Origin: Zingiber officinale
Lineage: Eukaryota > Streptophyta > Magnoliopsida > Zingiberales > Zingiberaceae
Reading direction: 5' to 3'
Length of the DNA stretch: 64,000 nt
NCBI RefSeq assembly: GCF_018446385.1
Contig: NW_024589877.1
Location: 105,409 to 169,408 of the forward strand
Positions 18,342 through 34,956 of this stretch are shown here, piece after piece; the stretch's first letter is position 1, and each line of letters opens with the position of its first letter. Position numbers and translations under genes: made by a program. The notes beneath the pieces were generated by a model. The model was given only the letters and a program-made list of their open reading frames with translations, did not search any database and was not told where the DNA came from.

Positions 18342-20403
18342 TATATATATATATATATACCAATTTGATATGCTGTGTAAAGCTTTGTGTTCGATCATGA
18401 GTGATGTGTAGATATAATGTTGTTAGCTCGATTTTGTTAAAAAAAAAAAAAATATCATTTATTCTCTTTCCCCTTCTGCCTTTTTAAAAATACTTTTGTG
18501 TGAAAAATTTTTCAAATTAAAATCTCTCTTGCTGCTCTCTTTCTCTCTCTCGCTCCCGTCGTCTCTGTCACCCATCGTCCGTCGGACCTCGCGTCTCTCG
18601 CCGGAAAAATTTCACTGGCATCTTCAATCTCACAGCTGCTGTGAGAGTTTATCTCCATTCCCAATGGTAATTCATTTCATTTTAATTTGTTATTCTCCAC
18701 CGTTATAGCATACATATATTAGAAGGATTAAATCTATAACGTGCAGGGACGACGGCGTCTACAAACGCCTACATGCTATAGCCACGTCTACGCGTTAGCT
18801 GCTACACGTTGTAGCAACTACAAACATGAAGCCGCCACTTGGTAAGTCGATTTTATGATAAATAAATTTTCTAGCATATACTATCCCTACAAATATTTAA
18901 GTTCATGTATAGCAACTTGGTAAAAACTTATTTGAAATTATTTTTTATTGATGCAACACCTTTGCTTCGCTTCTAAACGTTGAAGCAACTACTTCACAGC
19001 AAACTGTCCTTGTAGCTGCTACAACTTGTAGCAGCTAACTTGTAATGGCGATCGTAGAAGGAAGGAAGGAAGGAAGGAAGGAAGGATTTATGCTACGTTG
19101 TGCAAGGCTGACACCTGCTACAGACGCCTACAACCACTTGGATTTTCCTTTACTGCTACAAGTTATAGCAACTAATTCGATAGTTAATTGCTACACCTTG
19201 TAGCAGCTAATTGGCTATGGAGCAACTACTTCGACAGGTAACTGCTACACCTTGTAGCAGCTAACTCTCCATGTACTTGCTACAACCTGTAGCAGCCGCT
19301 TGGTAAGTCATTTTTTTACTAGTTATATTTTCTAGCAGATATTAACCCTTAAAATACTTGCTAAAAAATTATTTAAAAATATTTATGTTGCTTCAGTGCC
19401 TTTGCTTTGCAGCTACACGTTGTAGTAGCTACTTCGACAAATAACTGCTACACCTTGTAGCAGCTAACTTGAAATGACGAAGCTGTTACAACGTGTAGCA
19501 GTTACTTCTTCGTTTATGCTTTACAAGATGTTACTCTGCATTTTAACCAATAATAAATAGATCATAGCAATCTCAGTTTTTTATTTAGATCAAGTAAATG
19601 TGGTTCTACATGTTGTAGAAGCAACTGCAACATGTTGAAGCAACTAGTCGTCAGAAGCTGCTACACAGTGTAGCAGCTTGTCAAGAGTGGCTGCTATACT
19701 GTGAAGCAATTACTTCTGATTAGCTGCTACACTTTGTAGCAGATACTCAAGAATAACTGCTACAACGCGTAATAGGTACCCCTGATCTCCAAATAACCTT
19801 TTCTGGCCAATTAACTTTTTATAATTATTGTACAATTACATTTTTACCCTCAAGAGCCAAAGGTTTAACCCCTAAACTCGCCATGTGATAAACACTTCGA
19901 AAGAATTTCAATCATAGTAGATGAGTGCCACACGGTGTCTTTGTCAATCAATCTCACCGCGGCGACTTGTTTTTCATCCAAATCTCATCTCCATCGTAAG
20001 TATTCTGTTAGCGGTGAAAGTTTTGAGTCATCTCATTTTATTTAGGGGTTTGAATTTTTAGGGTTTTGATTCGTCTCCTAGTTGCTACAATGGGTATTAA
20101 TGATTTTAGGGCTTTCGGGTTTAAGATTATGGTTGAGGGAATAGAATGTTTAAAAAAGTTTATCTTTGTTGTAGCAGCAACTATAGCTGAACCCTAATTA
20201 TTGATACACCATGATTAAACCCTACAGTCCCGATGGGCTTCTCGCGATAGTAACAGCTACTTGACCACAACATGTAGTAGCTACTCATGTTTAGCAGCAA
20301 CTACTCACTAAGATCTTATATATTTGTTTGACAGAATTAAATGGTGAGCTAGAGAATTGCTGCTTCTCGGGCATACCGTAAGAAAGTGCATTGGAAAAGT
20401 AAT
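18342..20403. repeat. Left terminal arm of the MULE, palindrome array
   Basis: This arm matches the reverse strand of 33,496-34,956, and its outer ~0.9 kb matches the reverse strand of 31,100-32,640. From about 18,795 to 19,785 it contains roughly 14 copies of a palindrome with arms TAGCTGCTACA and TGTAGCAGCTA. The clearest is at 19,013-19,037, with perfect 11-base arms and a 3-base centre. A short (GAAG)n run interrupts it at ~19,057-19,085. The outermost ~75 bases show many C-to-T and G-to-A differences from the other two ends. Confidence 0.85.
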
Positions 20404-21943
20404 TACCCACACTATCAAGAGTTTTTTTTTATCATCACTACACATAAACGATCGACAGATGGAGATGATCAATAGAAGCCCATTTGCTTGGGCAGTAGTC
20501 ATGCCTGAAATTGCAAATATCTGAAGCCTTATACAAAATATGTTTGACAATTGGGACGTTGAAGCCAAATGTTTCATCTTTCATAATAAGGAGATCAGCT
20601 TCACAAGGAAAGATGTTTCACTAATTCTAGGACTCCCAAACCAAGGCGATTAAGTAAATTTGCAACAGCAAGCTGCCACCACTCCACTATTTCGTCAACA
20701 CTTCAGTAATGTGGAGCGTATACAGAAGGAGTCAGAGAGTAAGATGATCAGCCTCAGCAAACAACATTCATCTGCTGAATCTGATGCTCTATTTTGCCAA
20801 TTTTTAATATTGTATTTCTTTGTTTCTGTTTTATTTACTACTACTAGCAATATATCTAGATTACCAGTACAGTCACTAATAGATTGTGTAGATGATTTTG
20901 CTAATTTAGGTAGGTATAATTGGTGTAAGACTGTATATGACTATATGAGCCCACAGCTGGGGGTCATTGGTGTGATGCTTTCACAGAGGCCGAAACCAGA
21001 GGACCTTGTGGGAAATCAAGCTCCCATGCTCAAAGGTTTCACACATCTCCTCACTGTAAGTGGTTCAATTTTATGATAGACTCATAAGATTTATGTAGAA
21101 AATTTCATATTTAACCATTTGTATTGTATTACAGGCGTGGATGTGTGAACATGTCAGAATAATGAATCCTTACAGATAACATGCCCTTTCAAGAATATGA
21201 AGATGGAAGTGGTCAGGTTCTAGTGTGGAGACAATAAAGTATAGGATCGCAGAATTACCTGCTGCCAAAATAATTGTTGATTTAAGTCCATCGGACCTAG
21301 AGACACATATGCTCTCAAACGATTCTCTAGACGATGTTGTAGATCATATAGATCAACAAATTGCTGAGGGGTTTTTATAATCAGCTACTGAGCAACATCT
21401 TAAACAAGTTCATGAGCAATTTCTTGAACAGACAGCCGACGCTCAGGAAAATCCCCAAGCATGTCCTGAGTAGGAGAAAGAGGTTTGTACAAATTGTCAA
21501 GCAAGGAAGGCCGAAATTGGTCATTTGGAGTCTGTGGTTGAGGGTAAGGACCGACTCATTGCCTAGATGGAGACTAGAATTAGTGAGTTAATTATTGAGA
21601 TTCAAATATGTGTCAGTGGTGCAGAAACTTCATTAACTTCCAAGGACAAAACAATTGATGAGAATAACAAAATTATAGATGTAAAAGGTCAAATTATAAC
21701 AGAGCAAGATAGAAAAATTAAAGATCTTCAAAGTCAGTTGCTTGCCAAGGATATAGTGTCATTACCAACCAATCGACCATTAACAAGGTCAAAGATGTGT
21801 GCTACAAAGAGAAGGACACCCCCAACTACCAAAGAGAATAAGGGAGTGTCATTGGCCAAAAGGAGTAAAAGAGTCACTTTTCAAGATGAGCAGGAGACAG
21901 AGATGGCCAAGGGCAAAGGAGAAGAAAATGTTGAGCCTCCTGT

Positions 21944-32675: not shown

Positions 32676-33059
32676 TACAAGAAGAATGGATATTACGATC
32701 CGAGAAGCAGACAAGTTTACTGATACAGATGATCTTTTAAGGGAAGAAGACGTAGAGCTTGAATCCTCTTCGATGGGGGGTTCTTTAACACCACCCAGAG
32801 TGGGTTTCGTCCTCCTGCTAAAGCAAGACATGATAATGAAAGGGCTATAATGTGGACTAAAGGCAAGACAACGTGAAAGAGTCTATTAGGTTAATAGCCA
32901 CTTTATAGGAAAAGAGGCTCAAGCAACCCTAACTCTTGATAAAGACTAGTCAAACGGAAGTGTCTTTTCGATACCGTGGGTCATCAAAAGACTCACTACA
33001 ACTCATTAACACATGGGAAAAGATAAGATCATAATACAGATAGTAAAGACAAGGATAAC
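32676..33059. other. Unassigned segment between two MULE ends
   Basis: The segment has no palindrome motif and no match to the arms. A plus-strand frame starting at 32,688 reads an acidic peptide (MDITIREADKFTDTDDLL) for about 54 codons; I recognise no family. It could be host DNA between two insertions or a captured exon. Confidence 0.35.
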
Positions 33060-34956
33060 CAACCGTCGGGCATTGAATTCTTCTATGTACCTTAGCTACT
33101 ACAACATGTCGCAACTTAAAATGTTTCAATCGAAAATATTACTGTTTTATATTTGTAAATTTTAAAGTTTAAAACGTTGTAGTTGCTACTGTTGATTAAA
33201 AAAATTTTAAATTATTTTTTTCCAAATTGATATACATAATAATAATATTTTTAGGGGTAATATGTGTTTGAAAATATAGTTGTTATAAAAATGACTTATC
33301 AAGCGGGAGCTAGATGTTGTAGCAGCTACATAGACAGTTAGCTGCTACAAGGTGGACTTGTCATCTTCACAATGTGTTGTCGATTGACTTTTACATGTTG
33401 TAGCAGCTATTGCCGAATAACTACCACAACGTGTAGCAGCTACTCGACATTAGCTGCTATACCCTGTAGTAGTTTGACAAGACATTTATAACAGTATTAC
33501 TTTTCCAATACACTTTCTTATTGTATGCCCGGGAAGCAGTAGTTCTCTGGCTCACTATTTAATTCTATCAAACAAATACATAAGATCTTAGTGAGTAGTT
33601 GCTGCTAAACATGAGTAGCTGCTACACGTTATAGCAATTAGGGTTAAGTAGCTGCTACTATCACAAGAAGCTCATCGGGACTGTAGGGTTTAACCATGTT
33701 GTATCAATCATTAGGGTTCAACCACAGTAGTTGTTACAACAAAAATAAACTTTTTTTAAACACTCTATTCCCTCAACTATAATCCTAAACTCGAAAGCCC
33801 TAAAATCATTAATCCCCATTGTAGCAGCTAGGAGACGAATTAAAACCCTAAAAATTTAAACTCCTAAACAAAACGAGATTCACCCCTAACAAAATACTTA
33901 CGATAGAGGCGAAGATTTGGATGAGAAACAAGTCGTCGCGGTGAGATTGATTGACAAAGACACCATGTGGGCACCGATCTACTATGATTGAAATTCTTTC
34001 GAAGTGTTTGTCACACGGTGAGTTTAGGGGTTAAACATTTAACCAATGAGGGTAAAAATGTAATTGCACAATAATTACAAAATGTTAATTGGTCAGAAAA
34101 TGTTATTTGGAGATCAAGGGTATCTATTACGCGTTGTAGCAGCTATTCTTGAGTAGCTGCTACAAAGTGTAGCAGCTAATTAGAAGTAACTGCAACACAG
34201 TGTAGCAGTCACTCTTGACAAGCTGTTATACCGTGTAACAGCTTCTGACGACTAGCTACTTTAACGTGCTGCAGTTGCTTTTAAACATGTAGAACCTCAT
34301 TTAATTGATCTAAATAAAAATCTGAGATTGATATGATCTATTTATTATTGGTTAAAATGTAGAGTAACATCTTGTTGAGCGTAAACGAAGAAGTAACTGC
34401 TACACGTTGTAGTAGCTTCATCATTTCAAGTTAGCTGCTATAAGGTGTAGCAGTTATTTGTCGAAGTAGCTGTTATAACGTGTAGCAGAAAAGCAAAAGC
34501 ACTGCAGCAACATAAATATTTTTAAATAATTTTTAGCAAGCATTTTTAGGATTAATATCTGCTATAAAATTTAGTTAGTAAAAAAACGATTTACCAAGCG
34601 GCTGCTATAAGTTGTAGCAGCTACATGGAGAGTTAGCTGCTACAAGGTGTAACAGTTACCTGTCGAAGTAGCTGCTACACATTATAGCAGGTGCATGGCC
34701 AGTTAGCTGCTACAAGGTGTAGCAGTTACCTGTCGAAGGCGCGAGGTTCGACGGACGATGGAGACAGCGGGAGCGAGAGAGAGAGAGAAAGAGAGCGACT
34801 AGGGAGATTTTAATTTGAGAAATTTCTCACGCAAAAGTGTTTTAAAAAATACGGAAGGGGAGAGAGAATAAATGACATATTTTTTGTAACGAAATCGAGC
34901 TGGCAACGCCACGTCTGCGCGTCGTTCACGATTGCTCACAAAGTGTCGCTCAGCAT
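33060..34956. mobile_element. Shorter, inverted MULE copy lacking the protease block
   Basis: Read on the minus strand from the TA repeat inward, this segment follows the left arm from 18,342 to 20,403, then jumps at GTAAT (33,496-33,500) straight to sequence matching 25,818-26,267. It also lacks the counterpart of about 18,600-19,225. It therefore carries a terminal arm and a subterminal region but no gene. Its inner end near 33,060 has no TA repeat, so it is a truncated copy or one arm of a larger rearrangement. Confidence 0.8.

Follow-up and report, generated by a model that had tools for sequence, protein, structure and literature searches.

The 64,000-nucleotide (nt) stretch of the Zingiber officinale genome analyzed here (contig NW_024589877.1, positions 105,409 to 169,408, forward strand; hereafter, the window) contains two neighboring Mutator-like elements (MULEs), elements A and B, whose non-coding parts carry arrays of a short palindrome. 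The region analyzed was 18342-34956. Element A (18342-32640) is a degenerate FAR1/SWIM-type MULE. Its left end is a (TA)n tract (18342..18359, read directly from the sequence), followed by a palindrome-free left terminal region (18360..18620, + strand), with the first palindrome 436 nt in, and by the left non-coding arrays upstream of gene 1, with periods of 35 and then 33 nt (18796..20299). Gene 1 (20341..25504, + strand) is broken and carries inserts; it comprises a PMD/DUF1985-like part (match at 20543-21073) and an Ulp1 peptidase C48 part (match at 25046-25297). The intergenic arrays (25843..28796), including a cluster with a 36-nt period and 4-nt centers at 28035-28170, lie between gene 1 and the convergent, degenerate transposase gene (29214..31027, - strand). 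The transposase shows FAR1 (30695-31027), MULE (30209-30448), and SWIM (29594-29887) matches and a zinc-knuckle-like tail (29214-29735, - strand), which was recognized by eye and has no Pfam match. A tandem copy of the right terminal region (31049..31838; three palindromes at 31118-31212), the right terminal region itself (31839..32640; three palindromes at 31906-32000), and (TA)17 (32641..32675) complete the element. Element B (33055..34955, - strand) is related to the left half and the intergenic region of A, in inverted orientation and with an internal deletion; it contains 17 palindromes and ends at (TA)34 (34955..35022).

Inverted similarity between A and B covers 19176-20403/33496-34737 (87%), 25818-26264/33055-33500 (88%), and the termini, 18336-18596/34737-34990 (77%). 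In B, gene 1 is missing between the parts that match A's left and intergenic regions. Because the long similarity enters gene 1 (start at 20341) and reaches its far side, it is read as A aligned with its inverted, deleted relative B. A single 16.6-kb MULE with terminal repeats of about 2 kb was rejected as the main reading for the same reason, and the right terminus of A at 32640, beside the transposase, is further evidence against it; the outer pair 18342/34955 as the true ends of one element is a residual possibility. The palindrome-rich "arms" of a MULE complex described in the first-pass annotation are thus mostly A against B, although the MULE assignment itself holds. A's own two ends match piecewise (62-76%), and part of its right terminal region forms a tandem duplication (31049-31735/31839-32516, 80%). 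The three ends in the window adjoin (TA)n, which would mask any 8-11 bp target site duplication.

The palindrome has the consensus TAGCTGCTACA-N3-TGTAGCAGCTA, in which the 22 arm bases were scored for mismatches. With spacers of 0-6 nt, 21 placements were found at ≤2 mismatches and 54 at ≤4, whereas 200 shuffles that preserve dinucleotides average 0 and 0.005; exact 11-mers numbered 35 versus 0.015 expected. When counted without overlap (spacers of 2-4 nt, nine blocks of the region summed), the palindromes amount to 46, 58, and 66 at ≤4, ≤5, and ≤6 mismatches, respectively. The dozens of copies noticed in the first-pass annotation are therefore real, and the positions given for them are correct (18.80-19.78, 25.84-28.80, 31.12-32.00, and 33.09-34.73 kb); weaker copies occur at 20.0-20.3 kb. 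The center, put there at 2-3 bases, is 3 nt in 50 of 58 palindromes (≤5 mismatches, four non-coding blocks, spacers of 0-8 nt), and a small cluster at 28.0-28.2 kb has 4-nt centers. Spacings within clusters are 33 nt in 18 of 56 cases and 35 nt in 14. Two features were overlooked at first reading: the linkers between palindromes resemble one another in both orientations, and the window has a second, diverged array at 12.0-12.7 kb. Deviations at C/G positions are mostly transitions (91/116), whereas those at A/T positions mostly are not (23/72 transitions; 57 palindromes), a bias at C/G that would be expected from deamination in methylated, silenced copies. No known RNA family was found in the window at the gathering score.

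At ≤5 mismatches, 16 palindromes are located upstream of gene 1 and 18 between the genes; each of the two right-end copies has 3, and B has 17. The density in the five non-coding blocks is 3.7-8.9 per kb. Gene 1 with its inserts contains 1 palindrome in 5.1 kb, and the transposase gene contains 0 in 1.9 kb. None occurs in the 259-nt left terminus or in the 379 nt separating A from B. Even at ≤6 mismatches, no palindrome was found in the last 436 nt at the left end of A, 640 nt at its right end, or 226 nt at the end of B. The arrays are subterminal and internal, which leaves their relation to foldback-type terminal inverted repeats of short tandem units uncertain. Apart from the empty outermost termini, the placement of a short tandem motif in intergenic and terminal non-coding DNA is that of VANDAL/VANC systems. 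Outside this region, the window contains 3 palindromes at ≤5 mismatches, and these all belong to a second small element (11.94-12.84 kb).

In the window transposase, SWIM (30.9 bits) is above its Pfam cut-off of 19.6, and the MULE piece (E = 3.5e-5, 24.6 bits; cut-off, 27.6) and FAR1 (26.3 bits; cut-off, 28.1) are just below theirs. All three exceed the cut-offs in relatives, in which FAR1 reaches 60.9 bits (locus L065) and MULE reaches 112.2 bits (E = 1.7e-32, locus L066). The order of the domains, with FAR1 N-terminal and SWIM C-terminal, is the layout of the Jittery group in the group table of PMC6446971, the part of that paper covered; the assignment refers to domain content, not to a tree.

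The position of the start codon of gene 1 (20341, + strand) rests on a by-eye alignment with the start codons of intact relatives. The Ulp1 peptidase C48 match, on the + strand opposite the transposase, is above the cut-off (E = 4e-5, 24.0 bits; cut-off, 20.7), as is the match in a downstream frame of relative L074 (22.5 bits, E = 1.1e-4). The first exon is open over 240 amino acids (aa) in four relatives and over 236 aa in a fifth, which is cut by the stretch edge. Between these five relatives and L073, a copy closer to the window's, the ratio of nonsynonymous to synonymous substitution (dN/dS) of the exon is 0.26-0.30 at a dS of about 0.4. Gene 1 is, on this coding signature, a real gene constrained between subfamilies. 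Palindromes also occur downstream of gene 1 in the subfamily with a gene-1 dS of about 0.4. No match to DUF287 was found among the pieces scanned. An insert interrupting gene 1 contains a different palindromic 33-bp array at 22905-23025 (CCAAGCAAGG...CCTTGCTTGG) and AT-rich 57/105-bp repeats at 23037-23441; these repeats (22905-23441) are perhaps part of a nested retroelement.

The arrays are a feature of a genome-wide family. In the assembly from which the window was taken (3.09 Gb, 211 contigs), an exact N3 palindrome is present at 554 places, compared with 0 for the reversed pattern; the N3 pattern was absent from viral contigs and the prokaryote genome collection. Exact arms with a center of 0-2 nt occur at 6 places and with centers of 4-12 nt at 374; among the matches listed for the latter, all 50 distinct ones have exactly 4. 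A survey of 70 loci, for which six loci were dropped (the window itself, overlapping others, or duplicate), yielded 601 palindromes in 58 of them, with a 3-nt center in 179 of the close arm pairs and a 4-nt center in 5, the sample being poor in the 4-nt class.

A left-end probe gave 287 candidates and 40 scored matches, from which 30 end loci were fetched (2 of them the window's own). At ≤6 mismatches, 413 palindromes lie in the 52.5 kb inside the elements, at 29 of the 30 loci, and 31 lie in the 44.7 kb outside, confined to 4 loci. Three of these, L006, L014, and L017, have 12, 8, and 10 palindromes beyond the element end, which suggests a neighboring family member joined via the same microsatellite, as in SaTar arrays. 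At 27 of the 30 family ends, 423-450 nt separate the first palindrome from the end, and a TA run of at least 12 nt adjoins 20 of the 30; together with the three window ends, these place the family, as seen from occupied sites, among the (TA)n-targeting MULEs. Within the first 1.7 kb, the longest run of units spaced by 35 nt comprises 2 to 9 units in 24 of 27 copies, and the other 3 have no such run; the unit register differs among arrays (33, 35, or 36 nt). The unit number varies, and tandem duplication evidently multiplies the units. The genome size and the near-identical pairs of loci would be consistent with an assembly in which haplotypes are resolved, and alleles may then have been counted as separate loci: 27 sequences are distinct among the 30 end loci and 21 among 30 transposase loci.

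The 30 transposase loci (1 the window's own) were examined from 1229 candidates, and 150 of 2219 gene-1 candidates were scored. Palindromes are present at 26 of the 30 transposase loci, mostly on the 5' side of the gene. A gene-1 match was seen by eye within 30 kb at 11 of these 26 loci (one being the window) and at 0 of the 4 palindrome-free loci, a difference that is not significant. Three of the four palindrome-free loci are near-identical to one another. At L066-L067 (G000:C8:110258300-110271299), an open transposase frame of 723 aa, whose MULE piece is 85% and FAR1 60% identical, is accompanied by 0 palindromes and 0 gene-1 matches in 13 kb. A second, partial copy stands in tandem there, and the 723-aa frame length recurs at five further listed transposase places (one with a stop), which suggests that amplification was recent. 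At several listed places, gene-1 and transposase matches are on the same strand, about 10-27 kb apart, and not convergent as in the window; if each such pair derives from a single element, the subfamilies differ in gene order.

Conservation of the arms is clearest at L077, a single array picked for holding exact palindromes and found via the search for 4-nt centers. It consists of 15 consecutive units in an exact 36-nt register and can be aligned to the intergenic cluster of the window near 28 kb. The mean pairwise identity is 0.861 for arms, 0.598 for centers, and 0.510 for linkers, a difference reached in 0 of 20,000 permutations. Over 28 aligned end copies (L034 and L027 left out), arm and neighbor identities in three successive blocks are 0.862/0.792, 0.728/0.676, and 0.603/0.573. 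The tandem right-end copies of A differ at 0 of 66 arm positions versus 112 of 589 outside the arms; this identity was not used as evidence because the neighboring linkers and 3' flank are also highly identical, and it may be the result of gene conversion. Extra arm conservation between A and B was looked for and not found.

A variant arm with T for G at position 6 forms period-30 arrays in the window (12.0-12.7 kb), at L075, and, more sparsely, at L076. In the window, these arrays, with TAGCTTCTACA arms, make up a separate small element (12052..12671; inverted similarity at ~11961-12761). Genome-wide, N3 palindromes have G in both arms at 554 places, mixed arms at 59, and T in both arms at 30, compared with about 5.5 both-T places expected by hand arithmetic if the arms were independent. 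Part of this excess simply reflects two families with two motifs, each of which keeps its dyad. The second small element (11961-12835) is AT-richer, its inverted end region is 69% similar, and it contains a perfect 70-bp tandem duplication at 12693-12832.

Statements on published systems here and below refer to the parts of the cited papers that were covered. VANC21 of VANDAL21 binds a nine-base motif in introns, in intergenic DNA, and in non-coding DNA of the termini, and it causes methylation to be lost (PMC5735166). VANC targets are tandem repeats that expand and contract and differ between families, and VANC proteins contain DUF1985 and DUF287 (PMC5735166; PMC10398659). Elements A and B are most likely decayed members of a large (TA)n-associated two-gene MULE family, as judged from their gene remnants and ends. 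By analogy with the VANDAL design, which is partially matched in gene content, motif placement, and motif turnover, the arrays are probably binding sites of some element-encoded protein, either gene 1 or the transposase. In such a mechanism, tandem duplication would have carried the sites into the main non-coding regions (the stretch between the genes and those upstream of gene 1 and of the transposase) and not into the outermost ends, and the element-encoded protein would bind the palindrome as a dimer with a fixed half-site spacing of 3 or 4 nt. The best candidate binder would be the PMD/DUF1985-Ulp1 protein of gene 1, which might occupy many sites across its own family and remove silencing marks, so that the element would be transcribed and mobile. 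That the arrays are dyad-symmetric sites for this particular protein, acting like the VANC anti-silencing proteins, is a proposal to which we give somewhat less than an even chance. We infer binding, the identity of the binder, dimerization, and anti-silencing alike. More tentatively still, a separate sequence-specific anti-silencing or self-recognition system might exist outside the Arabidopsis VANDALs, the elements from which VANC is known, consisting of a MULE-encoded PMD/DUF1985-Ulp1 protein and a dyad target in hundreds of copies within one plant genome; its division into motif subfamilies, with G or T at arm position 6 in both arms, belongs to that same tentative reading.

Several observations weigh against assigning the sites to a VANC-like gene-1 protein. 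In the window, gene 1 matches DUF1985 (E = 9e-8, 32.6 bits; cut-off, 35.1; one stop read as X) and PMD (E = 2e-6) below the cut-offs, and in the exon of an intact relative, also below the cut-offs, PMD (E = 1.8e-6, 27.8 bits) is higher than DUF1985 (E = 8e-4, 19.9 bits), so that kinship with VANC is uncertain. Among the five close relatives, dN/dS is 0.43-1.17, with few changes. Many plant MULEs carry PMD and Ulp1 parts (PMC13317346; PMC2528002; PMC6446971). The 10-kb stretch of L065 contains 50 palindromes and a transposase with no detectable gene 1. The motif here is a 25-26 bp palindrome versus the 8-9 base motif of VANC, and the string "palindrom" is absent from both VANC papers (PMC5735166; PMC10398659). 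The arms are modestly more conserved than their neighbors over the 28 end copies (rotation P = 0.055), and the initial 420 nt, which lack palindromes, reach about the conservation (0.834) of the best arm block (0.862). Between A and B, the arms differ by 12.4% versus 9.3% elsewhere in the outer block and by 14.4% versus 10.1% in the inner block. Linkers specific to each cluster are unsupported, the identity in the window being hardly different within (0.61) and between (0.59) clusters.

The first-pass annotation had offered three roles for the palindromes, namely, transposase-binding sites, hairpins feeding small-RNA production, and replication slippage. If the FAR1 domain of the transposase bound the palindromes to assemble both ends, as with the subterminal motifs of other DNA transposons, then the dense subterminal arrays, their position beside the transposase gene at 26 of 30 loci, and the retention of transposase and arrays at L065 would be accounted for, and both Muta1 and CACTA elements bear repeated subterminal motifs. 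However, the outermost ends in the window are palindrome-free, 18 of the 58 copies are in the interior intergenic region, and the relative with the open 723-aa frame has no palindromes; we regard this role as unlikely and place gene 1 ahead of the transposase.

Action by structure, as hairpins or cruciforms or via transcripts entering small-RNA production, in the manner of Foldback-type elements, is physically feasible: seven array stretches fold as single-stranded DNA with z values of -3.2 to -8.1, compared with -0.4 and -1.4 for two non-array stretches; all 4 double changes in the 15-unit L077 array preserve pairing; and Foldback-type MULEs are already known. The same array nevertheless has 18 one-sided changes, and the arms vary independently in the window (16 matching changes versus 13.9 expected, P = 0.30, 68 palindromes). 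Over 27 copies (L022 also left out, as for the unit runs), compensatory changes number 137 versus a shuffle mean of 81, but relatedness and misaligned array units inflate this count, which is thus not trusted, and the first three palindromes, which are the best aligned, give only 1, 2, and 1. A hairpin also has no need of an exact 3- or 4-nt center, and a purely structural function seems improbable. Functionless by-products of slippage during replication and of template switching within palindromic DNA would fit the variable 35-nt runs, the shifting register, and arms no better conserved between A and B than their surroundings, and tandem duplication does multiply the units. Slippage leaves unexplained, however, that arms outlast linkers at L077, the one array that allowed a clean measurement, and the constant position of the first palindrome, the nearly palindrome-free genes of the window element, and one motif common to arrays with unlike linkers all make a neutral origin rather unlikely.

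Binding by an element-encoded protein thus remains the favored explanation. Whether VANC-like self-recognition reaches beyond Arabidopsis can be tested directly here, where a candidate protein and a candidate target are both legible in the sequence. The target is a long and unmistakable palindrome, gene 1 shows constraint between subfamilies, and nature supplies variants: altered arms, arrays without detectable gene 1 (L065), and a relative without arrays (L066-L067). The means by which transposons counter silencing while sparing the host have been described in sequence detail for few systems, and arrays of this kind are detectable by plain palindrome counting.

Elsewhere in the window, there are a tandem duplication of about 590 bp (496-1668, 94% identical) and a 188-bp direct repeat (44324-44510 and 52078-52265, about 7.8 kb apart, 89% identical). 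A 591-aa frame (37224-38999) is presumably PPR-like, and a 325-aa frame (44963-45940) resembles what we take to be the start of a VPS54-like protein; plant-type neighbors such as the PPR-like frame point to an angiosperm host.

The closest likeness is to the VANDAL/VANC systems: a MULE with a second, DUF1985-like gene, to which Ulp1 is added in the KIU type, and a family-specific motif whose copy number turns over. Ulp1-bearing VANC genes are called KIU (review PMC13317346), and in KI-MULEs, the Ulp1 gene is in reverse orientation to the transposase (PMC2528002), as are Ulp1 C48 (+ strand) and the transposase (- strand) in the window; in some relatives, the two are on the same strand. The differences are a FAR1-type transposase, (TA)n ends, and no DUF287 match in the pieces scanned. 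Degenerate or missing terminal repeats are a trait of the VANDAL lineage, against which the FAR1-type transposase argues; A's ends match piecewise.

The (TA)n ends and the clustering in one microsatellite are common to MuTAnT/AutoMuTAnT of Medicago, SaTar, the pineapple mMITEs, Micron, and TAFT (PMC4486113; PMC5907723; PMC8449440). In these papers, AutoMuTAnT has a Jittery-like transposase and the (TA)n MULEs have foldback-like terminal repeats; AutoMuTAnT differs in being 4.9 kb long with a single open reading frame, and neither palindrome arrays nor gene 1 were met in the parts covered. An extra terminal copy at one end, here 31049-31838 beside 31839-32640, is also found in tandem-terminal-repeat MULEs, in which, however, whole terminal repeats are repeated and not short palindrome arrays (PMC3310237). 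The Foldback-type MULEs Muta1 of mosquito and Tm1 of nematode have terminal repeats built of many short units, but these are 12-15 bp tandem units in arrays described only in the terminal repeats, with no comparable second gene in the passages covered (PMC5225508; PMC3169594). Inverted motif copies in the CACTA elements Tgmt* and En/Spm form many stem-loops, thought to be bound by a TNPA-type element protein that diverges with the motif, although these belong to another superfamily and the motifs are subterminal only (PMC2613891). Full-text literature searches, which do not cover repeat databases, yielded no report of palindrome-array MULEs, in keeping with the first-pass statement that no MULE family of such design was known, and a search for the motif string returned papers that are unrelated by title and the start of the abstract. 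Each component is known separately: arrays of short units at MULE ends in Muta1 and Tm1, subterminal stem-loops in CACTA elements, MULEs that target (TA)n, and the target arrays of VANC.

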